This document shows, piece by piece, positions 36,281 through 52,275 of a stretch of 64,000 nucleotides of DNA; within the stretch, counting starts at the first letter, position 1, and each line of letters starts with the position of its first letter. The notes under the pieces were generated by a model. That model was not told the origin of the DNA and did not search any database. It was given only the letters and a program-made list of their open reading frames with translations. The stretch comes from Candidatus Accumulibacter phosphatis (GTDB taxonomy: Bacteria; Pseudomonadota; Gammaproteobacteria; Burkholderiales; Rhodocyclaceae), in contig NZ_SPMY01000019.1 of NCBI RefSeq assembly GCF_012939955.1, positions 65,782 to 129,781 on the forward strand, in the 5' to 3' direction. The translations under genes and the position numbers were made by a program.

Positions 36281-37222
36281 TCAGCGCCGCAGCAAGCTCA
36301 CTAGGGTAGCGAGCAGTACGGCCGCGCAGCAGGCATGCGCGATCGCCAGCCACAGACTGAAGCCGCTGATCACGGTCAGCGCCCCGAGCATCACCTGCGC
36401 GGGTAAAAGCAGCAGCAGCGCCATGGCTGCCTTGCGCGTCGCGCCATCGGCGAGCGCCTGCCAGGCAGCGCCGCCCAACAAGAGCAGCGTCAGCAAGGCA
36501 CTCCAGCGGTGCAGCAGATGCAGACTGATCCCCCCGGCTTCGCCCGCTGGCGGCGGCCCATTCAACGCCGCAAATACCTGCATGGCAGCCCAACCGTCTG
36601 CTGTCGGCCACCAGTGGCCCATACAATCCGGCAAGGACAAACAGGCCAGGGCTTCGTAACGGGCGCCGATCAGCGCACCGAGGATCAGCGTCAGCGACAG
36701 CGCAGCGCTACCGAGCTGTAGCAGCCGCCTTGGCGGCCCGGGTCGCGCCTTCACCGCCCTGCCGAGCATTGCTTCCGGGCGGCTGGCGAGCGCCACTCGC
36801 CACGAGAAACTCACCAGGCCAAGGCCGCCGAGGATGTTCAGGAAAGAAACCAGCACTAGCCGTGGATCGGAACTCCAGAAGCCGAGCACCGCCAACGCCA
36901 GCACCAGCAACACCAGGGCGCTTGCCGGACGTGCCGGCGACGGCAGCGACGGACGACGCCAGCACAGCCACGCCAGATGGCAGACCAGCAGTAGCGCCAG
37001 CGAGGCCGTAGCGCGATGCAGCAGGCGCAGCGGGCCGAAAGCCTGCGCCGGCGGCTCGCTGCTCAGCAGTTGCGCGTAGCAGGCGGGCCAGTCGGCACAG
37101 CCGAGACCGGCCGCTGCAAGGCGCAGCCAGGCGCTGAGCAGCACCACCAGCAGCGACAGCGCCGTCAGCCAACAGGCAATCGTCCGGATTTTCTGCAGTC
37201 GCAAAGCCTGGCTGGCAATCAA
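36281..37222 (-). CDS. CtaA/COX15-family heme A synthase paralogue
   Basis: About 313 residues with eight hydrophobic helices. The signature of the CtaA half is present: AWLRLAAAGLGCADWPACYAQ (with paired Cys in and before the motif region), LLHRATASLALLLV and LHLLHRWSALLTLL, each with heme-binding His. The start is uncertain: a TTG at 37222 overlaps the upstream ctaA stop as TTGA, while a GTG at 37270 would give a longer overlap. It differs strongly from the adjacent ctaA, so the two are not recent duplicates. Its role may be heme A formation or an assembly function. Confidence 0.8.
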   Translation of the reverse strand: MIASQALRLQKIRTIACWLTALSLLVVLLSAWLRLAAAGLGCADWPACYAQLLSSEPPAQAFGPLRLLHRATASLALLLVCHLAWLCWRRPSLPSPARPASALVLLVLALAVLGFWSSDPRLVLVSFLNILGGLGLVSFSWRVALASRPEAMLGRAVKARPGPPRRLLQLGSAALSLTLILGALIGARYEALACLSLPDCMGHWWPTADGWAAMQVFAALNGPPPAGEAGGISLHLLHRWSALLTLLLLGGAAWQALADGATRKAAMALLLLLPAQVMLGALTVISGFSLWLAIAHACCAAVLLATLVSLLRR

Positions 37223-38268
37223 GCGGCGCTGCCCGCCACCGGCTCTACCCGCAGTTGGTGATTCAACCACAGCAGCAGGCCGAGAACGATCATCGCGCCC
37301 CCCTGATGTGCGGCGCCGAGGCCAACCGGAACCGCCAGCAGCAAGGTCGAGATCCCGAGCACGATCTGCAGGAAGACGGCTACCAGGACCAGAGTTGCTG
37401 CCAGGCGGGCACTACGGGAAAGCGCGGCCGCCCTGATCTTCCACCACAACCAGGGCACCAGAAAGGCCAACAGCCATGCCCCCAGGCGATGGTCAAACTG
37501 CACCAGCGCCATGTTGTTGAAGAAATTGAGATACCAGGGATCGATGATGAAGCTTTCCGGCGGCAGGAAATGCCCGTTCATCAGCGGAAAGCTGTTGTAG
37601 GCCTTGCCGGCCCGAATGCCGGCGACCAGACCACCGCTGACCACCATGTAGCCCACCAGAATCGCCAGCCAGAAGGCGAAGCGCTGCAAACCCTTTAATG
37701 TCGCGTCGGTGGTCACGCGCACGCGCTCGCTGAGCAGGCCGAGCGCCAGCCACATCATGGCCACGAAAATCAGGAAGGCCAGCGACAGATGCGCCGTCAG
37801 GCGATACTGGCTGACGCGCGGATCATCGACCAGGCCACTCTTGACCATGTACCAGCCCATCGCGCCCTGCAGGCCCCCGAGCACGAAGATGCCGAGCAGC
37901 TTGGGCATCAGCGGCGGGTCGATCTTGCGTCGCCAGCAAAAATAGAGGAAGGGCAGCAGGAAGACGACACCGATCAGGCGTCCAAGAACACGGTGCCAGT
38001 ACTCCCAGAAGAAGATACCCTTGAACTCCTCGAGCCCCATCTGGTGGTTGACCTTGTGGTACTCCGGCGTCTTCTTGTATTTCTCGAAAGTCTCGTCCCA
38101 CTCGGCCTGGTTGAGCGGCGGAACGATGCCCACGATCGGCTTCCACTCGACGATCGACAGGCCGGAATGGGTCAGGCGGGTGACGCCGCCGACGACCAGG
38201 ATTGCGAAGACCATGGCGCTGCAGATGAACAACCACAGCGCAACTTGCCGGCGAGCGACTTTATTCAT
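37219..38268 (-). CDS. ctaA: Heme A synthase
   Basis: Membrane monooxygenase that converts heme O to heme A with eight helices; 349 residues. It is of the COX15/alphaproteobacterial type, with VVGGVTRLTHSGLSIVEWKPIVGIVPPL, EFKGIFFWEYWHRVLGRLIG, GMVKSGL-like GWYMVKSGLVDDPRVSQYRLTAHL, and NMALVQFDHRLGAWLL, containing the conserved heme ligands. The ATG at 38268 starts a short cytoplasmic tail (MNKVARRQ). It is divergent from the oxidase operon at 38576 and shares its 300-base control region, which contains an FNR-type box. Confidence 0.92.
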   Translation of the reverse strand: MNKVARRQVALWLFICSAMVFAILVVGGVTRLTHSGLSIVEWKPIVGIVPPLNQAEWDETFEKYKKTPEYHKVNHQMGLEEFKGIFFWEYWHRVLGRLIGVVFLLPFLYFCWRRKIDPPLMPKLLGIFVLGGLQGAMGWYMVKSGLVDDPRVSQYRLTAHLSLAFLIFVAMMWLALGLLSERVRVTTDATLKGLQRFAFWLAILVGYMVVSGGLVAGIRAGKAYNSFPLMNGHFLPPESFIIDPWYLNFFNNMALVQFDHRLGAWLLAFLVPWLWWKIRAAALSRSARLAATLVLVAVFLQIVLGISTLLLAVPVGLGAAHQGGAMIVLGLLLWLNHQLRVEPVAGSAA

Positions 38269-38439
38269 ACGATGGATCCGGGAGGGAAGAGGAAAGCGAA
38301 GCGAGGAAAGCGAAGCGCGAATTATAGGCCTTCGGCGGCGGCCTTGAGCGCTCCAGGGGCTGCGACCGGCGGCCGCATGAGCATGCCTGCAAGGCTGATG
38401 ATTGCTGGCTTTGCCGGTCATCGCCGTCTTTCCCCGTTC

Positions 38440-38482
38440 TTGACGTGCATCAAATCACAAGCAGGGCAAGAGCAGGTATTCT
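38440..38482 (+). promoter_or_regulatory. FNR/Dnr-type box and -10 element for the heme-copper oxidase operon
   Basis: TTGACGTGCATCAA at 38440-38453 matches the TTGA(T/C)-N4-(A/G)TCAA site of FNR/Dnr regulators. A -10-like TATTCT lies at 38477-38482. With a start near 38488 the box is centred at -41.5, the class II activator position. It lies 122 bases before the first gene of the operon. Confidence 0.6.
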
Positions 38483-38575: not shown

Positions 38576-38725
38576 ATGGTCGACGACAAAGACGACGACA
38601 TCCCGTTCATGCAGAAGCTGCTGGACAACCACTTTCTGCTCCTGTTTCTCGGTGTGGCGTCACCAGGGCTGATCTACATCCTGTGGGGCATCATCGACAT
38701 CATGAACACGCCGGTCGCCAAATAA
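38576..38725 (+). CDS. Small single-helix membrane protein preceding oxidase subunit II
   Basis: 49 residues: acidic N-terminus (MVDDKDDDIPFMQKLLDNH), then one transmembrane helix (FLLLFLGVASPGLIYILWGIIDIM). AAGGAGG lies 9 bases before the ATG at 38576, so translation is likely. It is 30 bases upstream of the subunit II gene and is almost certainly in the same transcript. Size and placement suggest a small accessory subunit, like subunit IIa of ba3-type oxidases, but I do not recognise the family. Confidence 0.75.
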   Translation: MVDDKDDDIPFMQKLLDNHFLLLFLGVASPGLIYILWGIIDIMNTPVAK

Positions 38726-38755: not shown

Positions 38756-39296
38756 ATGAGTGCAATTCTGCCGCCGTCAGATCGGCTATGGTGGAAGCAA
38801 CCCATCGACAAGGTCGAATGGGCGTGGATAGCGATCGCCTTCGTATGGGGGATGATCATGTTCGGGATGATGATCTACTGGCACATATACGGTAAGCAGA
38901 ACCTGTCCAACGAGGCCTACAAGACCACCCCGGAACTGTTCGCCGCCAAGGCCGAGAAGTTCATCGCCGAAAACACCATCCGCACCGAGACCGACCAGGA
39001 CATCCCGGTGGTGAGAGTCCCGCCGGGCGGCGACGGCTACCTGATCGCCCGCCTCTGGGCCTGGTACCCGATCCTCGAACTCGAGGAAGGTCAAACCTAC
39101 AAGATCCATCTCTCGTCGATGGACTACAACCACGGTTTCTCGCTGCAACCGGTCAACATCAACATCCAGGTGATCCCCGGTTATGAGCACGTGGTGAAGA
39201 TGACACCAACCAAAAAAAGGCACTTATGCCATCGTTTGCAACGAATTCTGCGGCATCGGCCATTCCTGGATGCTTGGCCGTATCTACGTGAAATAA
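38756..39296 (+). CDS. Heme-copper oxidase/NO reductase subunit II with CuA site (frameshifted near 3' end)
   Basis: Single N-terminal membrane anchor (WIAIAFVWGMIMFGMMIYWHIYG) and a periplasmic cupredoxin domain of the short ba3 type, with MDYNHGFSLQPVNINIQVIPGYEHVVKM. An A7 run at 39212-39218 breaks the frame. With one A fewer, it continues GTYAIVCNEFCGIGHSWMLGRIYVK and stops at 39294-39296, giving the full CuA set (upstream His, CxxxCxxxH, Met). As sequenced, translation runs on to 39310 with a nonsense tail. The intact downstream genes make a base-call error likely. It passes electrons to subunit I. Comparable to NorS of norSY clusters. Confidence 0.82.
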
Positions 39297-39310
39297 GGGG
39301 GAGTAAATAG

Positions 39311-41005
39311 ATGGCAACCACGTACCGCACCTGTCCAATCTCGGGAATGCAGTTTGAGGACCAGGCCGAGAAACTGATGCGCTGGAACGCCGTCGCCGGC
39401 GTCCTCTGGCTGCTGGTAGGCGGCGTCACCGCGCTGTTGGTGATCCTTACCCGCTGGCCGGCGATCAAGCTGCTGCCGGCCGACCAGTTCTACCTGATTC
39501 TCACCGCCCACGGCATCGACATGCTGATTCTGTGGATCCTGTTCTTCGAAATGGCCGTTCTCTACTTTGCCTCATCGACATTGCTGCGCTGTCGACTGGC
39601 GGCACCGAAGATCGCCTGGCTCGGCTTCTGGCTGATGGTCGTTGGCGGCATCATCACCAACGTCGCGGTTTTCCAGGGTGAATCAAGTGTCATGTTCACC
39701 TCCTACGTGCCAATGCAGGCGCAGCCGCACTTCTACCTGGGCATCATCCTGGTCGCCGTCGGCGCCCTGCTCGGTACCTGCGTCTTCTTCGGCACCCTGG
39801 TCGTCGCCAAGAAGGACAAGACCTATCAGGGCTCGCTGCCGCTGGTGACTTTCGGCGCCCTGACCGCGGCGATCATCGCCACCTTCACCATCCTGTCCGG
39901 TGCCGGCATCCTGATCCCGACCTTCTTCTGGTCGATGGGCTGGATCAAGGAAATCGACGCCCAGTTGTACCGCATGATCTGGTGGGGCCTGGGACACTCG
40001 TCGCAGCAAATCAACGTTGCCGCGCATGTCTCGGTCTGGTATCTGACTGCCGCCGTGCTCTTCAACGCCAAGCCGCTGTCCGAGAAAGTCTCGCGTTTTG
40101 CCTTCCTGCTCTACATCCTCTTCCTGCAACTGGCCAGCGCGCACCACCTGCTGTCCGACCCGGGCATGAGCGCCGAGTGGAAAGTGCTCAACACCTCGTA
40201 CTTCATGTACTTCGCGGTGATGGCCTCGATGATCCACGGCTTCACGGTCCCTGGCGCAATCGAAGCGGCGCAACGGCGCAGAGGTTTCACCAACGGCATG
40301 TTCGAATGGCTGCGCAAGGCACCCTGGGGCAACCCGGTGTTCTCGGGCATGTTCATCTCGCTGGTCAGCTTCGGCTTCCTCGGCGGCATCTCTGGTGTCG
40401 TCCTCGGTACCGAGCAGATCAACATGCTGATGCACAACACCTTCTACGTTCCCGGCCACTTCCACACCACGGTTGTCAGCGGCACGACGCTGGCCTTCAT
40501 GTCGATCACCTTCCTGCTGGTTCCGGTGCTCTTCCGGCGCGAACTGATCCTGCCGAAGCTGTGCCAGATCCAGCCCTACCTGTACGGCATCAGCATGGGC
40601 ATTCTCGGCCTGGTGATGATGGGCGCCGGTACGCTGGGCGTTTCCCGCCGGCACTGGGACATGGCCTTCTCCGGCGCACCGTTCCAGTATGAATGGCCGG
40701 GTGCTGCCTACCTGATGATGGGCCTGACCGGTATCTTCGGGGTCATCGCCGTCATCGGTGGTGGCCTGTGGATCCTGCTCATCGTCGGCTCGCTGCTGTT
40801 CGGCAAGAAGCTCGACGGCGGCAAGGTCTCCGACAAGCCGACCCCGATCCCGGGCAACACGCAAGCGGCCTCGGCCGTCGCGCACGGCAGCGACCACATA
40901 CCGGTCCCTGGGACCGTCGTCCTGGCCTTGCTGCTCTTCGTGTCCTTCGTGCTCTACTACTTCGTCAACTGGAAGTACCTGTCCGAAGTCTGGCTGCTCA
41001 GCTGA
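39311..41005 (+). CDS. B-family heme-copper oxidase subunit I lacking the active-site Tyr; candidate nitric oxide reductase
   Basis: 564 residues, 13-14 helices. Heme ligands: His67 (LTAHGIDML) with His385 for the low-spin heme, and His383 for the high-spin heme (PGHFH). CuB ligands: His229, His278 and His279 (ASAHHLLSD). The usual GHPxVY motif of O2 reductases reads GLGHSSQQI here, so the cross-linked Tyr at His+4 is Gln233. There is also no Tyr six residues before the HH pair, as cbb3 enzymes have. Loss of this Tyr is typical of NO reductases. The subunit II-I order with SenC nearby recalls norSY-senC of ammonia oxidisers. An O2-reductase role cannot be ruled out. Confidence 0.85.
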   Translation: MATTYRTCPISGMQFEDQAEKLMRWNAVAGVLWLLVGGVTALLVILTRWPAIKLLPADQFYLILTAHGIDMLILWILFFEMAVLYFASSTLLRCRLAAPKIAWLGFWLMVVGGIITNVAVFQGESSVMFTSYVPMQAQPHFYLGIILVAVGALLGTCVFFGTLVVAKKDKTYQGSLPLVTFGALTAAIIATFTILSGAGILIPTFFWSMGWIKEIDAQLYRMIWWGLGHSSQQINVAAHVSVWYLTAAVLFNAKPLSEKVSRFAFLLYILFLQLASAHHLLSDPGMSAEWKVLNTSYFMYFAVMASMIHGFTVPGAIEAAQRRRGFTNGMFEWLRKAPWGNPVFSGMFISLVSFGFLGGISGVVLGTEQINMLMHNTFYVPGHFHTTVVSGTTLAFMSITFLLVPVLFRRELILPKLCQIQPYLYGISMGILGLVMMGAGTLGVSRRHWDMAFSGAPFQYEWPGAAYLMMGLTGIFGVIAVIGGGLWILLIVGSLLFGKKLDGGKVSDKPTPIPGNTQAASAVAHGSDHIPVPGTVVLALLLFVSFVLYYFVNWKYLSEVWLLS

Positions 41006-41014
41006 TCGAGCGCT

Positions 41015-41037
41015 CCCCCACGCCCCTGGCGTGGGGG
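41015..41037 (+). other. Strong GC hairpin between the oxidase subunit I gene and ctaB
   Basis: CCCCCACGCC / GGCGTGGGGG form a perfect 10-base stem with a CCT loop, 10 bases after the subunit I stop. There is no T-run, so it is not a standard terminator. It may stabilise the upstream mRNA or lower ctaB expression. Confidence 0.5.
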
Positions 41038-41162
41038 CCTGCCTCAATCGGGCCCGGGACAATGCTCCAGGCTCGATTCAAGCAGGTCTGACCCTTCGCC
41101 CCCGGGGCGATTTCGCGCCAACTCCTGCCTCTTCTTTTCCCTTCGCTGCGCCACCGAGACTC

Positions 41163-42059
41163 ATGCACTCCACGCTCCCACCGAACAGCACTTCCGGCTT
41201 TCCTTTCCGTGCCATTCTGGGCCTTTTCAAGTTGCGTATCGGCGTGGTCATCACTTTTACCGCCCTCGCCGGCCTGGCCGTCGGCGCCGGCCCCAGCCTG
41301 AGCCCCTTGCAACTGCTGGTGTTGACCCTCTCGGTACTCGTCTCCTCGGCCAGCGCCGGTGCCTTCAACCAGTATTACGAACACGACAGCGATCACCTGA
41401 TGGCGCGCACCAGCAAGCGCCCCTTCGTCACCGGCGAACTGCGCCATGGTCCCATCTGGCTGCTGCTGATTGCTGCCTTGATGGTGCTTTCGGTCGGCGC
41501 CGCCTGGATCGCGCTCAATGCCTGGTCAGCGCTCTTCGTCTTCCTCGGCGCCTTCTTCTACGCCATCGTCTATACCGTCTGGCTCAAGCGCCGCACCTGG
41601 CTGAACATCGTTTTCGGCGGCCTGGCCGGGAGCTGGGCAGTCCTCGCCGGGGCGACGGCGGCCGACCCGCAACTCGGCGCCGTGCCTCTGGCGCTGGCGC
41701 TGGTACTCTTCCTGTGGACGCCACCGCACTTCTGGAGTCTGGCCATCGCGTTCCGTGACGACTACGCCGCCGCCGGCGTGCCGATGCTGCCAGTGGTGGT
41801 TGGTGAGCAGCGGGCGGCGAAAACGATTTTCTTCAGCACCCTGGCGCTGGTCGCCGCCTCCTTCATTCCACTGGCTTTCGGACTCGGTGCGATCTACTTC
41901 GTCGGCGCCGCCAGCGGTGGCTTCCTGTTCATCCACAAAGCCTGGCTGCTGACTCGCGACACCCACCGCAAATCGGCGATGGCCTGCTTTCACGCTTCAT
42001 TGATCCAGTTGACACTGGTGCTGCTGGCCGCCATCGTGGACAGTCAATTTGCGTCCTGA
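41163..42059 (+). CDS. ctaB: Protoheme IX farnesyltransferase (heme O synthase)
   Basis: UbiA-family prenyltransferase of 298 residues with about nine helices; attaches farnesyl to heme b to make heme O, substrate of CtaA. The Asp-rich substrate motif is AGAFNQYYEHDSDHLMARTSKRP, the second is DYAAAGVPMLPVVVGEQ, and LFLWTPPHFWSLAIAFR is a CtaB signature. The ATG at 41163 is chosen because the upstream extension of the frame lies in the hairpin region and lacks family sequence. Its place inside the operon suggests that the oxidase carries a hydroxyethylfarnesyl heme. Confidence 0.92.
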   Translation: MHSTLPPNSTSGFPFRAILGLFKLRIGVVITFTALAGLAVGAGPSLSPLQLLVLTLSVLVSSASAGAFNQYYEHDSDHLMARTSKRPFVTGELRHGPIWLLLIAALMVLSVGAAWIALNAWSALFVFLGAFFYAIVYTVWLKRRTWLNIVFGGLAGSWAVLAGATAADPQLGAVPLALALVLFLWTPPHFWSLAIAFRDDYAAAGVPMLPVVVGEQRAAKTIFFSTLALVAASFIPLAFGLGAIYFVGAASGGFLFIHKAWLLTRDTHRKSAMACFHASLIQLTLVLLAAIVDSQFAS

Positions 42060-42103: not shown

Positions 42104-42988
42104 ATGATTGGTCCCTGTTTTCGCGCCCTCCTGGCGTCGCTTCTCGTTCTGGCAGCCTCCCCTCTCGTCGCCGATGAAGCCGCGGTCGAACAGCCCAAGC
42201 TCACGGCTCGGCCGCAGGGGCTGCTGCGCGGCGACCTGACACTGACCGCGCTCGACGAAAAAGCCGCTTACACCTTCTCGCAGGCCGCCATTGGCAGGCC
42301 GCTGGGGGACTTCGTGCTGCTCGACCGCAACGGAAAGCCGGTCGAACTGTCCCGTTATCTGGGCAAGCCGCTACTGGTCAACTTCATTTACACCGCCTGT
42401 TTCCAGGTCTGCCCGACGACCACCCGCAACCTGCAGAAAGCGCTCGAGAACACGGTCAGCGTCATGGGTGCCGATCGCTTCAACGTCGTCAGCATCGGCT
42501 TCAACCAGCCTTTCGACTCGCCAGCTGCCTTGCGGGATTTTTCCCGGCAGTACGGCATCGACCTCCCCAACTGGAATTTTCTCAGCCCGGCGACGGCAAT
42601 CGTCGATGACTTGACGGCTCATTTCGGCTTTCGCTTCATCGCCACCTCGGCCGGCTTCGACCACCTCAACCAGGTGACGATGGTGGATGCAGAAGGCAGG
42701 ATCGTGCGCCAGGTCTATGGCGAGAAGTTCACCGCCGAAGACATCGCCGAACCGCTCAAGCTGCTGATCACCGGCTCCGCCATCCCGCCCGAGACGGGCA
42801 CCCTGCGGGAGATCATGGAGCGTATCCGCATCATCTGCTCGGTCTACGACCCGCAGACCGGGCGCTATCGTACCGACTACTCGCTGTATTTCATGTTCGC
42901 CGGCTTCCTGACTTTCGTCTTCTTCATGATCTACCTGTCGATCAACTTCTGGAGAAATCGGCGCCGCGACGAGCCCAAGGCGCCCTGA
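42104..42988 (+). CDS. SCO1/SenC family protein with C-terminal membrane helix
   Basis: 294 residues. It has an N-terminal signal or anchor (MIGPCFRALLASLLVLAAS), a thioredoxin-like domain with FIYTACFQVCPTTT (CxxxC at about 100-104) and the third ligand in AGFDHLNQVTMVDAEG, then an extra C-terminal helix (YSLYFMFAGFLTFVFFMIYLSINFW). The C-terminal helix separates it from the lipoprotein Sco at 34579. It most likely matures the CuA site of the adjacent oxidase; in norSY clusters the equivalent gene is senC. It follows ctaB by 44 bases. Confidence 0.9.
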   Translation: MIGPCFRALLASLLVLAASPLVADEAAVEQPKLTARPQGLLRGDLTLTALDEKAAYTFSQAAIGRPLGDFVLLDRNGKPVELSRYLGKPLLVNFIYTACFQVCPTTTRNLQKALENTVSVMGADRFNVVSIGFNQPFDSPAALRDFSRQYGIDLPNWNFLSPATAIVDDLTAHFGFRFIATSAGFDHLNQVTMVDAEGRIVRQVYGEKFTAEDIAEPLKLLITGSAIPPETGTLREIMERIRIICSVYDPQTGRYRTDYSLYFMFAGFLTFVFFMIYLSINFWRNRRRDEPKAP

Positions 42989-43590: not shown

Positions 43591-43632
43591 TTGACTCGGG
43601 TCAAGTCGCCTCCAGCCCGCAGTCTATATAAT
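43591..43632 (+). promoter_or_regulatory. FNR/Dnr-type box and -10 element for the cytochrome b fusion operon
   Basis: TTGACTCGGGTCAA at 43591-43604 is a perfect palindromic TTGAC-N4-GTCAA site. TATAAT lies at 43627-43632. A start near 43639 puts the box centre at -41.5, the class II position for FNR, Dnr and CRP-type activators. The first gene begins at 43680. Confidence 0.7.
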
Positions 43633-43679: not shown

Positions 43680-45251
43680 GTGAGCTTCCACGCCGCATTG
43701 CGCAACGGCACAAAGAGCGTTTTTCTGCGTGTTGAAGAAGCCTTCGATTCCCCGTTCGGTGGCCAGGACAACCCCCTGCGCCATCTCGGCGCGATGGGTC
43801 TCTATCTGCTGTGGATCGTCGTCGGCAGCGGTCTTTATCTCTACACCGTTCTCGATACCGGCATCGACGCCGTCTATCACTCCATCGGCTATCTCTCCAA
43901 CGAGCAGTGGTACCTCGGCGGCGTCCTGCGCAGCCTGCATCGCTACGCCTCGGACGGCTTCATGCTGGTGATGATGCTGCATCTGCTTCGCGAATGGTCC
44001 TACGGCCGCTATTACGGCTTCCGCCTTTACTCGTGGATGACCGGCATCCCGCTGATCTGGCTGGCCTATATTGCCGGAATCGGCGGCTACTGGATCGTCT
44101 GGGATGAACTCGCGCAATTGTCGGCGACCGCGACCACCGAACTGCTCGACTGGCTACCGATCTTCAGCGAGCCATCGGCGCGCAACTTCATGTCGCCGAG
44201 CGCGATCAGCGACCGCTTCTTCACGGTCCTGATTTTCATCCATCTCGGCGTGCCGCTGCTACTGATCCTCGGCCTGTGGGCACACGTCCATCGCGTCGCT
44301 CATGTCGATTACCTGCCGACGCGTCGCGTGATGCTGGCTACCGCCGCCGCCCTGACCCTGCTCGCCCTGTTCCGACCCGCGCTGAGCAACCCGCCCGCCG
44401 ATCTGGCCAGCGTTCCCGGTGAACTGGCTTTCGACTGGTTCATCCTGTTCATTCATCCGCTCACCGACCTGACCTCGCCAGCCATCGTCTGGTCGCTGCT
44501 CTTCGGCCTGACGGCACTACTCTTCGCCCTGCCCCTGCTGCCGCACCCCAAGGCGCAGCCGATCGCCGTCGTCGACCCGGCCAACTGCACCGGCTGCGAC
44601 CGCTGTCATGTCGACTGCCCCTATGCGGCGATCTCGATGGCGCCGCACCCGGGCCGACCCGGCTACCAGCTGGCGATCGTCGACGCCGACCTCTGCGCCA
44701 GTTGTGGCATCTGTGCCGGCTCCTGCCCGTCATCAACCCCTTTCCGCCGTCGCGAGACGCTGATCACCGGCATCGACATGCCACAACTGCCGGTCAACGC
44801 CCTGCGCCAGCAACTCGAGCAGGCGCTGGCGCAACTCGCCGGCCGCACCCGCATCGTCGTCTTCTCCTGCGCGCGCGGTGCCCAGGGCAGCCCGCTGGCC
44901 GGCGCCGACACCGCGGTGATTGAGCTGATCTGCACCGGCATGCTGCCGCCGGCTTTCGTCGAATATGCGCTGCGCGGTGGTGCCGACGGCGTCGTGGTTA
45001 CCGCCTGTCGCGGCGGCGGCTGCGATTTCCGCCTCGGCGAACGCTGGACCAGCGAGCGCCTGCTCGGCGATCGTGAACCGCACCTGCGCCCCAGCGTACC
45101 CCCCTCGCGACTGCAACTACTGCTCGGCTCGGCGCACGACAGCGGCGCACTGGTCGCTGCGGTGGCCGAACTCAGAACCCGGATCGAAACCCTCGGGGTT
45201 GCGACCGACCGCCTTCCACCCTACCTGCGGAGTGCTTCACATCATGCTTAA
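43680..45251 (+). CDS. Cytochrome b / two [4Fe-4S] ferredoxin / MvhD-FlpD-like fusion protein
   Basis: 523 residues in three modules. Residues 1-290 are a cytochrome b/b6-like membrane domain with two bis-His pairs, each H-x13-H (LHRYASDGFMLVMMLH; IHLGVPLLLILGLWAH). Residues about 300-355 hold two [4Fe-4S] motifs (CTGCDRCHVDCP, CASCGICAGSCP). Residues about 385-500 resemble the MvhD/FlpD [2Fe-2S] subunit of heterodisulfide reductase-linked complexes (VVFSCARG, ELICTGMLPPAFVEYALRGGADGVVVTACRGGGC). It should carry electrons between the quinone pool and a soluble partner. The start is GTG at 43680 with GAGG upstream. It overlaps the next gene by 8 bases. Confidence 0.85.
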   Translation: MSFHAALRNGTKSVFLRVEEAFDSPFGGQDNPLRHLGAMGLYLLWIVVGSGLYLYTVLDTGIDAVYHSIGYLSNEQWYLGGVLRSLHRYASDGFMLVMMLHLLREWSYGRYYGFRLYSWMTGIPLIWLAYIAGIGGYWIVWDELAQLSATATTELLDWLPIFSEPSARNFMSPSAISDRFFTVLIFIHLGVPLLLILGLWAHVHRVAHVDYLPTRRVMLATAAALTLLALFRPALSNPPADLASVPGELAFDWFILFIHPLTDLTSPAIVWSLLFGLTALLFALPLLPHPKAQPIAVVDPANCTGCDRCHVDCPYAAISMAPHPGRPGYQLAIVDADLCASCGICAGSCPSSTPFRRRETLITGIDMPQLPVNALRQQLEQALAQLAGRTRIVVFSCARGAQGSPLAGADTAVIELICTGMLPPAFVEYALRGGADGVVVTACRGGGCDFRLGERWTSERLLGDREPHLRPSVPPSRLQLLLGSAHDSGALVAAVAELRTRIETLGVATDRLPPYLRSASHHA

Positions 45252-45741
45252 ACCCGCCGCCATCGTCGGCCAGGTGATCCTCTACGGCGCTTTTGCCGCT
45301 TTCATCGGCTATTTCGCCACCTCGCCGACCTACCACCAGATTCCCGAAGACGTCGCGCTGATCAAGCTCTCGATCAGCCACCTCGGCGACCGCGAGTGTC
45401 GCAAGCGGACACCCGAAGAGCTGGCCAAGATGCCACCGAACATGCGCGCACCGATGGACTGCCCGCGCGAGCGCTCCGACATCAATCTCGAAGTAGACCT
45501 CGACGGCGAGCCGGTTTTTCGTACCGTGCTGCACCCCACCGGCCTCTACAAGGACGGCGTGTCGACCGTCTACAAGCGCTTCGAAGTCAAGGCAGGCACG
45601 CACCAGCTGGCAGTCCGGATGAACGACAACCTGGTCGTCCCCGGCTTCAACTTCGTCCAGGATGAAGAGATCACCCTTGCCCCACGGCAGGTAATGGTCG
45701 TCGACTTCAACCCGGATCAAGGTGGCTTGTACTTCAAGTGA
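45244..45741 (+). CDS. Membrane-anchored periplasmic protein of unknown function
   Basis: 165 residues. It has one N-terminal membrane helix (AAIVGQVILYGAFAAFIGYFA) and a soluble domain that is probably periplasmic, with two cysteines (DRECRKRT and MDCPRERSD) and a beta-rich C-terminal half (VDLDGEPVFRTVLHPTGL, AGTHQLAVRMNDN). The ATG at 45244 overlaps the stop of the preceding cytochrome b fusion gene, so the two are coupled. The next gene is the second cytochrome b fusion. It is probably a subunit or assembly factor of a complex formed by the two cytochromes. I do not recognise the family. Confidence 0.8.
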   Translation: MLKPAAIVGQVILYGAFAAFIGYFATSPTYHQIPEDVALIKLSISHLGDRECRKRTPEELAKMPPNMRAPMDCPRERSDINLEVDLDGEPVFRTVLHPTGLYKDGVSTVYKRFEVKAGTHQLAVRMNDNLVVPGFNFVQDEEITLAPRQVMVVDFNPDQGGLYFK

Positions 45742-45847
45742 TCACCGCCACTGCGCATAACTCCAGACGCTGCCGCCGACACAGGTCCCGGCCAACAGGT
45801 ACGCACGCGAGTTCCACATCAAACAATTTCCCGAGCTGACATCAAAA

Positions 45848-47767
45848 ATGGTCAAAATCATTCAACAAGTCATCCGCTGGCTGTTCATGCGCATCGAGAA
45901 TGTGTTCAACGTCGCCTTCGGCGACAAGATGAACCCCTTCTACCACCTCGGCACGATCAGCTTCTGGCAATTCTGGTTGCTGCTCATCTCCGGCCTCTAC
46001 CTCTACATCTTCGCCGACACCGGCGTCCATGACGCCTTCGAGTCGGTGGAGAGCATCACCCATGACCAGTGGTGGCTGGGCGGCATCCTGCGCAGCGTGC
46101 ACCGCTACGCCACCGACGGCATGATCCTGACCATGCTGCTACACATGCTGCGGCACTTCGCCTACGATCGCTATCGCGGCTTCCGCTCGTTTTCCTGGCT
46201 CACCGGCGTCGTCCTGCTGTGGCTGATCTACATCGCCGGCGTCAATGGCTTCATGCTCGTCTGGGACAAGCTCGCGCAGTTCGTGGTCATCGCCACTGCC
46301 GAGTGGTTCGACATCCTGCCCATGTTCAACGGCACCCTGATCCGCAATTTCCTGTTCCTTGAAAACGTCAATAGCCGCCTGTTCACCCTGCTCGCTTTCC
46401 TGCACATCGGCATCCCGCTGATCATCGGCATCGTGATGTGGGTGCACGTGCAGCGCATCCCGCGCGCGCACATCAATCCGCCGCGCCCGATCGCCATCGC
46501 CGTGACCCTGATGTTCCTGGCGCTGTCGCTGGTCAAGCCGATCCTCAGCCAGGGTGGCGAAGCCGATATGGCGGTAGTCCCGACCGGCATTGCCTTCGAC
46601 TGGTTCGAGTTGCCGGTGCTGGCGCTGGTCTACGTCACCAACCCCCTGCACCTCTGGTTCTGGGTCATCGGCCTCACCGTCCTGCTGATCCTCGTGCCCT
46701 GGCTGCCGCCAAAACGACTCGGCTCGGCCAAGGCATTGACCTCGATCACCTTCCAGCCCGATCACAGATCGGTCAGCGCCCGCTTTGGCGAAACCCTGCT
46801 CGACGCCGGCCTGCGCCAGGACATCAACCTGCCCTACGAATGCCGTAACGGCGGCTGTGGGGTCTGCAAATGCACCGTCCTGCAAGGCAAGGTCGACCCC
46901 GGCCTCTACCAGCCGAGCGCGCTGTCCGACGCCGAACTGGCGCAGGGCAAAGTGCTCTCCTGCTGCGCCACTGCACTCGAAGACGTGATCATCGAGTACC
47001 AGGCCAGCGCCGTCGCCAGCGGCATCCAGGAATACACCGCCCGCGTCGTCAAGCTGGAGAAGCTCACCCATGACGTCATGCGCGTCCTGCTCAAGTTGCC
47101 GCAAGGCCAGCAGATCAAGTTCAAGGCCGGCCAGTACGTAAACATCATCCTCGACGACGGCCAGCGACGCGCCTTCTCCTTCGCCAACCCGCCGCACGAA
47201 CCCGAGTTCGTCGAACTGCAAATCCGTCTGATGCCCGGCGGCAAATTCACGACGCACGTTTTCGAAGCCATGCAGGAAGGTGACGAGATCCGCTTCGAAG
47301 GCCCGATCGGCGACTTCAGCCTGCGCGAATCCGAGCGCCCGATCGTCTTCGTCGCCGGCGCCACCGGCTTCGCCCCGGTCAAGAGCATGGTCGAAGACGC
47401 TTTCAAGCGCGGTCTCAAGCGCCAAATCCATCTCTACTGGGGCGTCAAGACTCTGAAAGATCTCTACCTGCCCGAACTGCCGACGCGCTGGGCGCAGGAA
47501 CACGACAACTTCCACTTCATCCCCGTGCTCTCCGAGCCCGAGTCCGAAGCCACCTGGAGCGGCCGCACCGGCCTGGTCCACGAAGCCATCCTCGAAGACT
47601 TCCCCGAACTCAAGGAACACGAAATCTACGCCTGCGGCTCGGTGCGCATGGTCGAAGCCATCTTCCCCTTCCTCAAGCAGCACGGTGCGGAAGACGGCGC
47701 GTGCTTCTCCGATGCCTTCAGCGTCTCGGCCAGGTCGATGGCTTTCCAGCCCAGGCAGGGGTCGTAG
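45848..47767 (+). CDS. Cytochrome b / 2Fe-2S ferredoxin / FAD-NAD(P) reductase fusion protein
   Basis: 639 residues. Residues 1-290 are a cytochrome b/b6 domain with two H-x13-H pairs (VHRYATDGMILTMLLH; LHIGIPLIIGIVMWVH), paralogous to the gene at 43680. Residues about 295-385 are a plant-type ferredoxin (CRNGGCGVCKC and a fourth Cys in LSCCA). Residues about 395-625 are a ferredoxin-NAD(P) reductase domain with FAD motif RRAFSFANPP, NAD motif VAGATGFAPVKSM and YACGSVRM. It matches the fusion reported from Candidatus Accumulibacter, proposed to let quinol electrons reach NAD(P)+ when terminal acceptors are lacking. Direction of flow is unproven. Confidence 0.9.
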   Translation: MVKIIQQVIRWLFMRIENVFNVAFGDKMNPFYHLGTISFWQFWLLLISGLYLYIFADTGVHDAFESVESITHDQWWLGGILRSVHRYATDGMILTMLLHMLRHFAYDRYRGFRSFSWLTGVVLLWLIYIAGVNGFMLVWDKLAQFVVIATAEWFDILPMFNGTLIRNFLFLENVNSRLFTLLAFLHIGIPLIIGIVMWVHVQRIPRAHINPPRPIAIAVTLMFLALSLVKPILSQGGEADMAVVPTGIAFDWFELPVLALVYVTNPLHLWFWVIGLTVLLILVPWLPPKRLGSAKALTSITFQPDHRSVSARFGETLLDAGLRQDINLPYECRNGGCGVCKCTVLQGKVDPGLYQPSALSDAELAQGKVLSCCATALEDVIIEYQASAVASGIQEYTARVVKLEKLTHDVMRVLLKLPQGQQIKFKAGQYVNIILDDGQRRAFSFANPPHEPEFVELQIRLMPGGKFTTHVFEAMQEGDEIRFEGPIGDFSLRESERPIVFVAGATGFAPVKSMVEDAFKRGLKRQIHLYWGVKTLKDLYLPELPTRWAQEHDNFHFIPVLSEPESEATWSGRTGLVHEAILEDFPELKEHEIYACGSVRMVEAIFPFLKQHGAEDGACFSDAFSVSARSMAFQPRQGS

Positions 47768-48946: not shown

Positions 48947-50803
48947 CTACTCATCAGGGGAAGAACGCAACACCACCCGGAAACCGACGAAGGGGTCGCT
49001 ATCGGGATGTGCCACGCTGCGATAGGCGCAGCGCGCATCGCTGCGGTCGAAACCCCACGCGCCGCCGCGAACGACCCTGTCACCCTTGGCGGCTGCTTCG
49101 AGATCCTCGCGGCCATCGTCGGCCGGCAACCAGAAGCGCTCCTGGTCAAATCGCGGGTCACCCAGGGCCGAAAGCACATCTCCCGCACGCGCGCGAACAA
49201 CCGGCCTGGCACCGAGCAGCGTCGACTCGTCGCCCAACAGTTCAACGATCCTCCGCGCGCAACCGCCGCGGGTCGCTTCGCCGCATTCGCGCCATTCCAG
49301 CGCCGCCGTGCCCGCCAGTTCGGCTGCCGAGAACTGCGCGTTCGGCTCGCCGCCGAACCTGGCCAGCGCTCCGAGAAAATCGCGCGCCGACTTGGCGGCA
49401 TTGCTCGCCCGGTAGCCAGCCAGCAATAGAATTGGCTCGCGCCACCACGGATCGTCGAGGCGGTCGCCGAGCACGGCAAGGATCGCGTCACGGCCCTCGT
49501 CGCCGGTGACTTCGCGCAGGTAGCGCGCCACCAGGAATTCCTGAAAGGCCAGATGAATGAAGCGATAGGCGCCCTGTCGCTCCTCCAGCACGCTGCCGCG
49601 CTGACGGGCGTGGCTGAGGAAGCGGTCAATGTGCGGCCGAAATTCGGCCTCCTCACGCAAGACCTTCTGCAAGGCCCGCTCACCGATCTCGCGCCCCTGG
49701 TCACGCCCCTGCTGGTGCATGTGAAAAGCGAGATGCTGCGCCATGTCGCGAAACACCTTCCAGTCGCTGGCCAACTCGCGGATGTCGGCCTGCTCGCGTC
49801 CGTAGTCGACTTGCAGCAAGGCGCTGATCGCCTTGTCGAAGAGCTCGGCGCGCCCGTCAGGAAGCGTGCGGTTGTTCACCTGCACGATCAGCAACAGGCG
49901 CACCATCAGCGGACTATCGACCAGCACCTGCGCATCGTCGCCGAGGCGCGCACGGCGGTCGTCCTCGAGCCGCCGAATGCCACCCAGGAGTTCCTGCACC
50001 CGCTCGCTGCGCAAATCGGCGTCCTGCGGGTGAATACAGGCGTACGCCTGGCGCACCATCGGTACGACGTGTTGCTCGAAATCGAGCGGCTGCACGGCAA
50101 TCTCACGGAACCTCACGCCCAGCGCAGTACCGCCGCTGCGGTAGGCGATGGTGCGACAGGTGACAACGACGCGCATGCGCTCCTGGCCACTGACCAATTC
50201 CTCGACCGACGCACGCACTTCGGCGCGCTCTTCTTCATTGGCGACCTCATCGAGCCCGTCGAGCAACAGGATCACCGGCCGCCCGTCCCTGAGGAGTTGT
50301 ACGAAGAAATCGTCGGGCAGATCGACGTCGGCCTGCTTCCTGATCAGGTGATAGGAGATGAAGTGTGTCAGCGCCCTCTCGCGTGCCGGTGCGTTGGCCG
50401 GCAGCTCGCGGCGGAAGCGGGCGAACGACGCGAGCGGCACAAAGATCGGCAAGGGCAGTTCGCTGGTAGCGACCACCGCCAAACCGAGGCGCGACTGCGC
50501 CGGCTCTGCCTGCCCGGTGAGCAGCGAAGACGCCAGCGCCCACGCCATGTGCAGCAGTACCGTCGTCTTGCCCGATCCTGGCCCGCCGATGATCACCAGG
50601 CGATTACCGAGACCGAGCACCTGGTTGAGGTCAATATCGCTGTCGCGCTCGCGCTCATCGGGTTCTGTTTTCTCGCCAGCGTCACCGCGACTGCGGGGGC
50701 GAGGGAGAGACTGCGCTGCCATCTTGTCCTGCGCGTCACCGGGCCGCGGGATCGGTCGGGCACGCAGCGGCACATAGGCCGCCTCCAGCGGCAGGGACAC
50801 CAC
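48947..50803 (-). CDS. NACHT-domain NTPase with truncated FGE-sulfatase tail (NLR-like)
   Basis: From the GTG at 50803 it has 618 residues. The NACHT domain carries Walker A GGPGSGKTT (residues 73-81) and Walker B with acidic pair LLLDGLDE (about 179-186), then a sensor region VVTCRTIAYRSG and the helical segment ending FIHLAFQEFLVARYLRE. The last 43 residues (RVVRGGAWGFDRSDARCAYR...GFRVVLRS) are only the end of a formylglycine-generating-enzyme-like domain; its core is missing. Coding sequence clearly extends upstream in frame to the TAG at 50948, including the conserved LRGIERAGGALVVSLPLEAAYVPL region. Relatives act in antiphage defence. It may be part of one gene with the TIR-like frame. 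Confidence 0.8.
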   Translation of the reverse strand: MVSLPLEAAYVPLRARPIPRPGDAQDKMAAQSLPRPRSRGDAGEKTEPDERERDSDIDLNQVLGLGNRLVIIGGPGSGKTTVLLHMAWALASSLLTGQAEPAQSRLGLAVVATSELPLPIFVPLASFARFRRELPANAPARERALTHFISYHLIRKQADVDLPDDFFVQLLRDGRPVILLLDGLDEVANEEERAEVRASVEELVSGQERMRVVVTCRTIAYRSGGTALGVRFREIAVQPLDFEQHVVPMVRQAYACIHPQDADLRSERVQELLGGIRRLEDDRRARLGDDAQVLVDSPLMVRLLLIVQVNNRTLPDGRAELFDKAISALLQVDYGREQADIRELASDWKVFRDMAQHLAFHMHQQGRDQGREIGERALQKVLREEAEFRPHIDRFLSHARQRGSVLEERQGAYRFIHLAFQEFLVARYLREVTGDEGRDAILAVLGDRLDDPWWREPILLLAGYRASNAAKSARDFLGALARFGGEPNAQFSAAELAGTAALEWRECGEATRGGCARRIVELLGDESTLLGARPVVRARAGDVLSALGDPRFDQERFWLPADDGREDLEAAAKGDRVVRGGAWGFDRSDARCAYRSVAHPDSDPFVGFRVVLRSSPDE

Positions 50804-50947
50804 CAGCGCGCCCCCCGCACGTTCGATGCCGCGCAGCTCGATGGACTCGGTATGGCTGCGCAGCCAGCGCAGATAGCCGTCGACCGGGTAGGCCCTGCCG
50901 GCCGTCGGGCCAGCGTCGACCTTGGGTGACTTTTGCGACTGCTCAGG

Positions 50948-51454
50948 CTAGTGCGACGCGACTCGGATCGAGCCGCTTGCAAGCAGCTTATCCAATTGTT
51001 GATTGAACTCATGCTTCAGCTGGTCGGTGTTCGTGTAACGCGTTGGGAAGTGCTCCACGACCTTCAGCTTGTCCTCGAACGCCCACAGGCTTGCCATATC
51101 AGCCCGGTTGACACTGGCAGAGCTGATCTGCACGTCCTTGAAATAGGTGAAGATCAAGGGCCTGCCGGTGGCCTTGAATTGCGCGTGGGCGGTCTCGAAT
51201 TCTTCGTCGGTGTAGCGACCAGCCTTGCTCCCGACCAACGTTACAAAAAGGTCGCATTCGCGAATCGCCTGGTTGTACTCGTCCTGCAACCGGGTCTTCG
51301 ACATGGCATTGAGGAAGTCTTCCCAGAGCACCACCTCGATGACGACACCCCGCGGACGTAAAGCCTTGTTCTTGCGGCTGATGCAGAGCTCAAACTCCTT
51401 CCGCTCCTCGCAGAATTCGGAGGACGAGGCAAGGAAGAGCTTCGTGGTGATCAT
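50948..51454 (-). CDS. TIR/SEFIR-like effector domain protein, in frame with the downstream NACHT gene
   Basis: 168 residues from the ATG at 51454 (MITTKLFLASSSEFCEERKEF) to a TAG at 50948-50950. The fold pattern is that of TIR/SEFIR-like domains: a FLASSSEF first strand, VVIEVVLWEDFLNAMSKTRLQDEYNQAIRECDLFVTLV, and GRYTDEEFETAHAQFKATGRPLIFTYFKD with a candidate catalytic Glu. After the TAG the same frame continues without interruption through a linker into the NACHT protein. So this is either the N-terminal effector module of a single TIR-NACHT protein cut by a nonsense codon, or a separate first gene. The domain type is inferred from motifs. Confidence 0.72.
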   Translation of the reverse strand: MITTKLFLASSSEFCEERKEFELCISRKNKALRPRGVVIEVVLWEDFLNAMSKTRLQDEYNQAIRECDLFVTLVGSKAGRYTDEEFETAHAQFKATGRPLIFTYFKDVQISSASVNRADMASLWAFEDKLKVVEHFPTRYTNTDQLKHEFNQQLDKLLASGSIRVASH

Positions 51455-51787
51455 CGTGACGGTTTCCAGAAGGCGTGTCGCCGAACAGTATAACCAAGCG
51501 TCCGCGAGAAACAGCGGCAACGCCGCCCGCCCACCCGGCGCTGCCGCTTTTGCCGTCTGGAAAGCACTCCCTTACCAAGCACGCTAAATCGCTGCGCCGT
51601 AAATCAAGGACAACGGCCATGGATCGCCACACACCCGCAAGCACGGCCAAACTGATTACCAGGATAATCGCCACAAGCTGCACGCCGGCACCCCGGACGC
51701 ACGACACGGTGAGCACAGCCACGCGGCCCCGCCAACACGCGAGCAGCATGTTCGCCACAGCAAACCGACCACGCCGAAAGCAGCACT
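51455..51787. other. 333-base region with no supported gene
   Basis: Between the TIR-like gene and repeat copy 2. Open frames on both strands exist; one on the minus strand has a hydrophobic stretch but no family features or ribosome site. No promoter motif stands out. Confidence 0.35.
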
Positions 51788-51837: not shown

Positions 51838-52275
51838 ATGCCCAAGCACGACTTCGTCAAATCCCTGCGCCAGAACATGACCGACGCCGAGAATCTCCTC
51901 TGGCGCCACCTGCGAGCGCATCGCCTGGGCGGCGTGAAATTCAGGCGCCAGCAGGCGATTGGCCCGTACGTCGTCGATTTCGTGCATTTCGGTGCTCGTG
52001 TCGTCGTTGAAGCGGACGGTGGACAGCACAATGAATCGCTGCCCGACGAGACACGCGATGCCTGGTTGACGGCTCAGGGATTCCGAATAATGCGCTTCTG
52101 GAACAACGACATACTGACTGACACCGCGGCGGTTCTGGAGGCGGTGATGGCGGAAGTTGAACGTGCTTCCCCCTCTCCCCCAGCCCCTCCCCCGCAAGGG
52201 GGAGGGGAGCAGGCAGGTAAATGGCCGCACTGCCGACAACGGCGGGCGCGATGGCCTGGCCGCGCCTTGCTTTGA
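51838..52275 (+). CDS. DUF559 (Vsr-like) endonuclease domain protein
   Basis: 145 residues. The PD-(D/E)XK-like DUF559 domain spans residues 5-110: LRQNMTDAENLLWRHLRAHRLGGVKFRRQQAIGPYVVDFVHFGARVVVEADGGQH, with catalytic residues in VVDF and VEADGGQH, then FRIMRFWNNDIL. The remaining 35 residues are encoded by repeat copy 3 (Pro/Gly-rich SPPAPPPQGGGEQ) and do not look like protein domain. The ATG at 51838 follows repeat copy 2 directly. The gene is thus enclosed between inverted repeat copies. Biological role of these proteins is unknown. Confidence 0.88.
   Translation: MPKHDFVKSLRQNMTDAENLLWRHLRAHRLGGVKFRRQQAIGPYVVDFVHFGARVVVEADGGQHNESLPDETRDAWLTAQGFRIMRFWNNDILTDTAAVLEAVMAEVERASPSPPAPPPQGGGEQAGKWPHCRQRRARWPGRALL
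52169..52210 (-). repeat. GC-rich REP-like repeat, copy 3 (inverted)
   Basis: CCCCCTCTCCCCCAGCCCC...CAAGGGGGAGGGGAGC is the reverse-complement relative of copies 1 and 2. It forms the 3' coding end of the DUF559 gene. It can also fold on itself through CCCCTCCCCC/GGGGGAGGGG. Confidence 0.78.

Follow-up and report, generated by a model that had tools for sequence, protein, structure and literature searches.

Nitric oxide (NO) reductases of the eNOR type, which go back to Hemp and Gennis (cited in PMC8756737), are a group for which two further accounts propose a proton channel (PMC10734462, PMC8114936). According to table A4 of PMC8756737 their mark is a glutamine at the active site, where the sNOR type has an asparagine. 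The sNOR genes of Nitrosomonas europaea, norSY-senC, combine subunits of a B-type heme-copper oxidoreductase (HCO) with senC (PMC6967387). Here we analyse a 64,000-nucleotide stretch of DNA from Candidatus Accumulibacter phosphatis, termed the window (contig NZ_SPMY01000019.1, positions 65,782 to 129,781; source genome assembly GCF_012939955.1, 5.04 Mb, 149 contigs), and in particular a locus of three genes coding for two membrane-bound fusion proteins and a small protein between them (Table 1). The first fusion joins a cytochrome b domain to two [4Fe-4S] clusters and an MvhD domain (the MvhD fusion), the second joins a cytochrome b domain to a [2Fe-2S] ferredoxin and a FAD/NAD(P) reductase, FNR (the FNR fusion), and the protein between them has a single helix followed by a beta-sandwich (the one-helix protein). 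The MvhD fusion recurs with, and frequently beside, an operon for an eNOR-type reductase. We tentatively propose, at close to even confidence, that the three genes encode the electron-transfer partner of this NO reductase.

Work by Murali et al. in 2024 reportedly also deals with eNOR-type NO reductases. The norSY-senC cluster of N. europaea contains a further gene, orf1. Proteins of the FlpD/MvhD type dock to hydrogenase, formate dehydrogenase or heterodisulfide reductase (Hdr). From Accumulibacter itself, Garcia Martin et al. reportedly described in 2006 a cytochrome b/b6-NAD(P)/flavin fusion, whose gene is probably that of the FNR fusion. They are said to have suggested that it links quinol to NAD(P), whereas here the fusion is placed with an NO reductase. 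PMC2289847 calls the Accumulibacter fusion a “novel cytochrome”.

In a phylum sample of 398 genomes, for which three candidates per genome were scored, the MvhD fusion was present in 34 genomes, the eNOR-type reductase in 30 and both in 29 (Fisher p 8e-38, uncorrected for relatedness). The two lie less than 5 kb apart in 15 of the 29 genomes, at 13-19 kb in two and on separate contigs in 12; in the single genome with the reductase alone (G218) the contig stops just past senC. The family sample (150 genomes of the Rhodocyclaceae) gave a full MvhD fusion in 30 genomes, the reductase in 30 and both in 28, counting only fusions whose match covers almost their whole length (pieces are present in G014 and G084, and part of an FNR fusion in G017). 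A relative of the one-helix protein adjoins the MvhD fusion in 46 of 48 loci (L037-L084). The other two (L060, L084) carry two tandem fusions, and the stretch ends before the expected one-helix gene, which is found in L089, a longer version of L060.

The FNR fusion is distributed in another way. It occurs at full length in 29 genomes of the family sample, including 28 of the 30 with an MvhD fusion (G037 and G095 lack it, and G004, 84% complete, has the FNR fusion only), but in just two of the 34 MvhD-fusion genomes of the phylum sample (G000 and G514). An earlier note on this DNA, made from the letters alone, had assumed that the three proteins form one membrane complex. Its expectation that the fusions co-occur holds within the family and fails in the phylum sample; outside the family the two regularly occur apart, an outcome that the note itself had named as contrary to its proposal. 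By the distribution of the FNR fusion we reject an obligate three-protein complex as the general rule. By the same distributions, the conserved core is the MvhD fusion, the one-helix protein and eNOR, and the FNR fusion was for the most part added to it within the family. That the constant companions of the MvhD fusion are the one-helix protein and the eNOR-type reductase went unmentioned in the earlier note, and it suggests that the two fusion proteins feed, build or balance the NO reductase rather than act alone.

The reductase genes lie 2.7 kb upstream of the MvhD fusion in the window. Subunit I belongs to the COX1 family and has the CuB histidines; its H229, H278, H279, H383 and H385 and its glutamine Q233 are invariant in 12 aligned sequences, and the motif GHSSQQ stands against GHPEVY in the aa3 oxidase of the same genome (L159). 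Glutamine takes the place of the active-site tyrosine in all 28 mapped reductases, 26 of them recognised by pattern and two by alignment (L091 with HSTQQ, and L115); L102, one of 29 long rows, is a pseudo-COX1 protein of 549 aa and was excluded. Within L012-L036 the gene is present in 15 loci, ten of them named Accumulibacter, and every one has the glutamine. The enzyme resembles eNOR in this signature as well as in the CuA-type subunit II of its relatives, and it differs from sNOR, with its active-site asparagine (PMC8756737, table A4). In the window itself, an A-run at 39211-39217 throws subunit II out of frame just ahead of the CuA motif, either through a sequencing error or through a real lesion; the motif is in frame in 15 of 15 related loci with a subunit II match.

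The active-site tyrosine of ba3-type oxygen reductases is absent from the upstream subunit I. Among the nine COX1-type matches of the genome, aa3, cbb3, qNOR-like and cNOR-like copies (the latter two labels resting on motif and length only) and pseudo-COX1 were recognised, and no Tyr-bearing B-type HCO. Camejo et al. (2019) annotate a “ba3 oxidase” in all their Accumulibacter genomes (PMC6446978). Given the glutamine signature and the lack of a recognised Tyr-bearing B-type enzyme, this “ba3” is probably the eNOR gene described here.

Pfam matches bear out the domain make-up that the earlier note had read from both fusions. The product of the first gene matches cytochrome b (PF00033, 4.3e-13), 4Fe-4S models and FlpD/MvhD (PF02662, 1.2e-11; 45.1 bits, cut-off 22.3, model positions 27-123); that of the third matches PF00033 (1e-17), PF00111 (Fer2), PF00970 (FAD-binding) and PF00175 (NAD-binding). 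The cytochrome b domains, rightly taken for di-heme paralogues, are 43% identical. The gene for the one-helix protein does overlap that of the MvhD fusion, by 8 nt, and the FNR-fusion gene starts 106 nt further on. The MvhD fusion is 97% identical to a protein of Ca. A. meliphilus UW-LDO-IC. In 23 of 25 related loci the three genes keep the same order and orientation, an arrangement that is not due to chance. The FNR-fusion gene breaks off at residue 588 in L021 and reads in pieces in L013 and L016; L019 has about 0.8 kb between the MvhD fusion and the one-helix gene, L035 an extra gene ahead of the FNR fusion, L033 stops within the MvhD-fusion gene, and L024 covers the FNR-fusion gene for 62 codons.

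The redox ligands are fully conserved. In 36 divergent MvhD fusions (those other than the window's copy being 41-72% identical to it), the heme-ligating histidines H87, H101, H188 and H202, the eight 4Fe-4S cysteines and the four MvhD cysteines are invariant, and so are the equivalent H85, H99, H186 and H200 and the [2Fe-2S] cysteines C332, C337, C340 and C372 in nine FNR fusions. The predicted structure of the MvhD fusion (pLDDT 88, pTM 0.83) matches bc1 cytochrome b as far as residue 291 (258 residues at 3.1 A, best Z 22.8), after which the Fe-S/MvhD arm follows. As in cytochrome b of the bc1 and b6f complexes, the four histidines occupy the same positions on helices B and D; the C-terminal helices, in contrast, are replaced by Fe-S/MvhD or FNR modules. 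D252-W253 are invariant in 36 of 36 MvhD fusions amid variable neighbours, in a loop that we read as the position of the PEWY loop of bc1; the motif is thus DW instead of PEWY. Neither a Rieske protein nor a cytochrome c1/f was found among the cluster genes scanned by Pfam. The list of structure matches was taken up by the cytochrome b part, and no claim on the fold of the MvhD arm is drawn from it. No direct sequence match to solved structures was obtained for the later helices in the cytochrome b part of the FNR fusion. Going by the helix count, both the reductase arm and the MvhD arm should face the cytoplasm.

Two further described proteins resemble parts of the fusions. The C-terminus of HdrA2 has a 4Fe-4S pair followed by MvhD, the order also found over residues 296-507 of the MvhD fusion (NF040770, 77.5 bits), yet the match is confined to that end of the model and stays below the cut-off of 1100 bits. 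The best NCBIfam model for the cytochrome b domains is that of Geobacter ExtP (NF040969; 66.8 bits for the MvhD fusion, 94.6 bits for the FNR fusion); both scores lie below the cut-off of 290 bits, and the ExtP model, with 205 positions, has no fused modules. Besides the MvhD fusion's own, no FlpD domain was found in the genome.

For the one-helix protein, a helix at residues 4-26 and a subsequent beta-sandwich are predicted (pLDDT 88). Two cysteines are retained in at least 90% of 36 sequences and are both gone in L057 and L063, and such a joint disappearance fits a disulfide. Considered as a redox carrier, the protein found no support: searches against Pfam and NCBIfam gave nothing up to E 0.1, and its structure matches are common beta-sandwiches only. 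Also discarded was the idea that the two cytochrome b domains arose within the family by a recent tandem duplication. In the cytochrome b tree (rooted at the midpoint, for drawing only), the FNR-fusion domains group together, on the side of MvhD fusions from outside the class and apart from most Rhodocyclaceae MvhD fusions (dividing branches 100/96), with the family's L115 copy on the FNR side. This placement fits an old split or a module swap better than a recent duplication.

The two units also share a palindrome, TTGAYNNNNRTCAA, which resembles sites of the FNR/DNR kind. The window contains two exact matches against 0.08 expected, an expectation made after the fact, as the pattern was loosened after reading the sequence; the stricter TTGATNNNNATCAA, with one mismatch allowed, gives two matches (8692 and 38440) against 0.60 expected and misses 43591. 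Conservation across loci is the better evidence. Of the family-type fusions, 39 of 44 have the palindrome in the 200 nt ahead of the gene, versus 1 of 39 others, and 28 of 43 distinct loci have it in the 400 nt ahead of subunit II; many of these loci are close relatives, and the background rate of 0.017 per 200 nt, taken over 915,106 bases, counts in the sites themselves. A shared FNR/DNR-type control of both units by low oxygen or NO would leave such a pattern. FNR regulation of the ba3 operon is reported in PMC6446978. A search for sigma-70 promoters found one, with 1.6 expected.

The architecture, the co-occurrence, the frequent gene clustering, the shared palindrome, the eNOR signature and the bc1-like membrane fold are direct observations. 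In the mechanism that we favour, the core would be a cytochrome b whose loop resembles a quinol site and whose two b hemes span the membrane, with a cytoplasmic [4Fe-4S]2-MvhD arm, and would be completed by the one-helix protein as a periplasmic subunit. In most fusion-bearing Rhodocyclaceae and a few relatives, another cytochrome b would join it, carrying an arm of ferredoxin and NAD(P)H reductase. Electrons might come from quinol and/or from cytoplasmic donors, namely NAD(P)H via the FNR arm and some donor via MvhD; through the b hemes they would reach the periplasmic side and then the CuA subunit of eNOR, where NO would be reduced to N2O. The physical complex, its sidedness in the membrane, the direction of flow and NO as the acceptor are what we infer.

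Several points weigh against this proposal. CuA-type enzymes normally draw their electrons from cytochrome c, and none of the cluster genes scanned was seen to encode a cofactor-carrying protein that could bridge the p-side heme and CuA. Five phylum genomes have the fusion without a reductase match (completeness reported as 82% for G270, 77% for G286, 96% for G294, 74% for G376 and 69% for G426); the contig of G270 stops within senC, and the other four remain unexplained. In the family sample, no reductase match accompanies the fusion in G077 and G114, and no full fusion accompanies the reductase in G014 and G017. Upstream sequence of 8 kb is available for 16 named Accumulibacter loci; nine of them contain the reductase, ctaB and senC in it, and seven lack all three there (L019, L020, L021, L026, L028, L030 and L034); these seven look as if the eNOR operon had been moved or lost. 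This result counts against strict clustering, and the co-occurrence across genomes does not rest on it. The three same-genus genomes of the family sample (G018, G079 and G125) all have the reductase, in G079 about 28 kb from the fusion. Reported expression is mixed, too: the “ba3” transcripts are high anaerobically in UW-1, but those of UW-LDO-IC fall into an FNR-repressed group (PMC6446978).

On account of ctaB, senC, the two CtaA homologues and the one-helix protein, the main rival is a role in maturation, in which the fusion and the one-helix protein would provide reducing power for heme or copper insertion into eNOR and not for turnover. Proteins of the CcoG/CcoH type play such a role for cbb3 oxidase. 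The genes stand behind ctaB and senC in the window, with two CtaA homologues next door, the co-occurrence with eNOR holds even where the genes are unlinked, and the one-helix protein has a beta-sandwich and two cysteines that are lost jointly. A copper reductase, however, would seem to have little need of a full, invariant set of heme, 4Fe-4S and MvhD ligands and a quinol-loop-like motif, and the added NAD(P)H arm looks catalytic; we regard maturation as possible but doubtful. The same membrane part could instead carry out a Rieske-free, NO-driven quinone bifurcation: quinol would be oxidised at the DW-motif site, one electron would pass to eNOR, and the other would climb via the b hemes to one of the cytoplasmic arms, 4Fe-4S/MvhD or FNR, to reduce NAD(P)+ or a low-potential carrier. 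The bc1-like fold, which by our reading covers the PEWY-equivalent loop, the invariant D252-W253 and the nearly constant presence of an NO reductase agree with this idea. It is nevertheless improbable, given an aspartate in place of the usual glutamate, no second FlpD domain found in the genome and no Rieske-like first acceptor among the Pfam-scanned cluster genes. If it were true, NO respiration would drive the formation of NAD(P)H or ferredoxin, in Rhodocyclaceae by reduction of NAD(P)+ via FNR.

The two remaining readings dispense with NO. The earlier note saw in the three proteins a self-standing complex between quinones, NAD(P)H and a low-potential carrier, and the conserved gene order, the joint presence of both fusions in 28 of 30 family genomes and the seven Accumulibacter loci without a nearby reductase are in its favour; with an FNR fusion in just 2 of 34 phylum fusion genomes and eNOR as the recurring partner, it is highly improbable. 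Equally hard to credit is that the heme-copper enzyme is an oxygen reductase, as its annotation as ba3 implies, and the module a substitute complex III feeding it. The B-type HCO (sNOR) of N. europaea has been argued to be a possible high-affinity oxidase (PMC6967387), and UW-LDO-IC “ba3” transcripts belong to a group rising with oxygen (PMC6446978). Against these stand the replacement of the active-site tyrosine by the glutamine that table A4 of PMC8756737 gives as the eNOR mark, in 28 of 28 enzymes, and the nirS neighbours in some lineages.

Table 1. Features of the window in and around the three-gene locus (positions in the window; strand as reported)
Feature	Positions	Strand	Remarks
Two divergent CtaA (heme A synthase) homologues	36281-38421	-	107.8 and 375.8 bits; adjoin eNOR operon
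FNR/DNR-like palindrome TTGAYNNNNRTCAA ahead of eNOR operon	38440-38453	.	exact match
One-helix small subunit-like protein (cluster c8)	38576-38725	+	49 aa; resembles conserved c8 peptides of relatives
eNOR subunit II, CuA type	38756-39310	+	frameshifted near C-terminus; relatives have CNE[YF]CGIGH
eNOR-type heme-copper subunit I (Tyr->Gln)	39311-41005	+	PF00115 207.4 bits; GHSSQQ, HH and GHFH motifs
CtaB-like heme O synthase, UbiA family	40758-42059	+	UbiA 167.6 bits for 41301-42059; true start probably internal
SCO1/SenC protein	42104-42988	+	PF02630 51.7 bits
FNR/DNR-like palindrome TTGAYNNNNRTCAA ahead of MvhD fusion	43591-43604	.	exact match
Cytochrome b - 2x[4Fe-4S] - MvhD fusion	43680-45251	+	GTG start, 523 aa
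One-helix protein with beta-sandwich	45244-45741	+	165 aa
Cytochrome b - [2Fe-2S] ferredoxin - FAD/NAD(P) reductase (FNR) fusion	45848-47767	+	639 aa
NACHT-type ATPase and adjoining small protein	48947-51520	-	39.5 bits (NACHT)
DUF559 protein	51838-52275		128.7 bits

A gene for a SpoU RNA methylase is also among the upstream neighbours. In some relatives, a pseudo-COX1 gene stands between the one-helix gene and the FNR fusion; in the source genome it lies elsewhere (G000:C27:878-2263; L119, L152). The product, of about 460 aa, keeps several conserved histidines and lacks the CuB HH pair. It was found in all 30 fusion-bearing family genomes and, above 400 bits, in 11 others; 47 genomes matched, 41 of them above 400 bits, and six at 202-277 bits (G009, G028, G044, G104, G140 and G142) were excluded. 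A small-genome lineage (1.2-1.9 Mb; L086, L089 and L091) has, in place of the pair of MvhD and FNR fusions, two tandem MvhD fusions with all redox ligands in both, followed by the one-helix protein and pseudo-COX1. In some other lineages, nirS (L088, Cytochrom_D1 422 bits) and heme-d1-synthesis-like genes (NirF-like, NirDL/GH-like and a NirJ-like radical-SAM gene) lie near the cluster, a neighbourhood in favour of the proposed role. Two members of cluster c6 were tested by Pfam, and its other members may include spurious reading frames. Downstream of the three genes, the NACHT-type ATPase and its small neighbour form, to judge by their sequences, a possible defence pair; the neighbour matches TIR_2/DUF4062 at 24.6/22.2 bits, below the Pfam cut-offs, and PADLOC PDC-S60 at 29 bits. 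The DUF559 protein is encoded near this pair.

eNOR, the FNR fusion and MvhD are each already known. The examined parts of published eNOR accounts do not mention a cytochrome b-MvhD partner, and the pairing of the two was not found in the literature searched; as the searches never joined both terms directly, its absence from print is not established. The locus offers a concrete, testable partner for eNOR and bears on how N2O is made. Camejo et al. (2019) find norZ in only few Accumulibacter genomes despite the toxicity of NO (PMC6446978). The B-type enzyme appears to be eNOR in the source genome and in the ten named Accumulibacter loci where the gene is readable; if the annotated “ba3” is indeed eNOR, NO reduction may be general in Accumulibacter, which would bear on a puzzle in phosphorus-removing sludge. 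The cytochrome b-FNR fusion of Accumulibacter would also gain a new functional frame.

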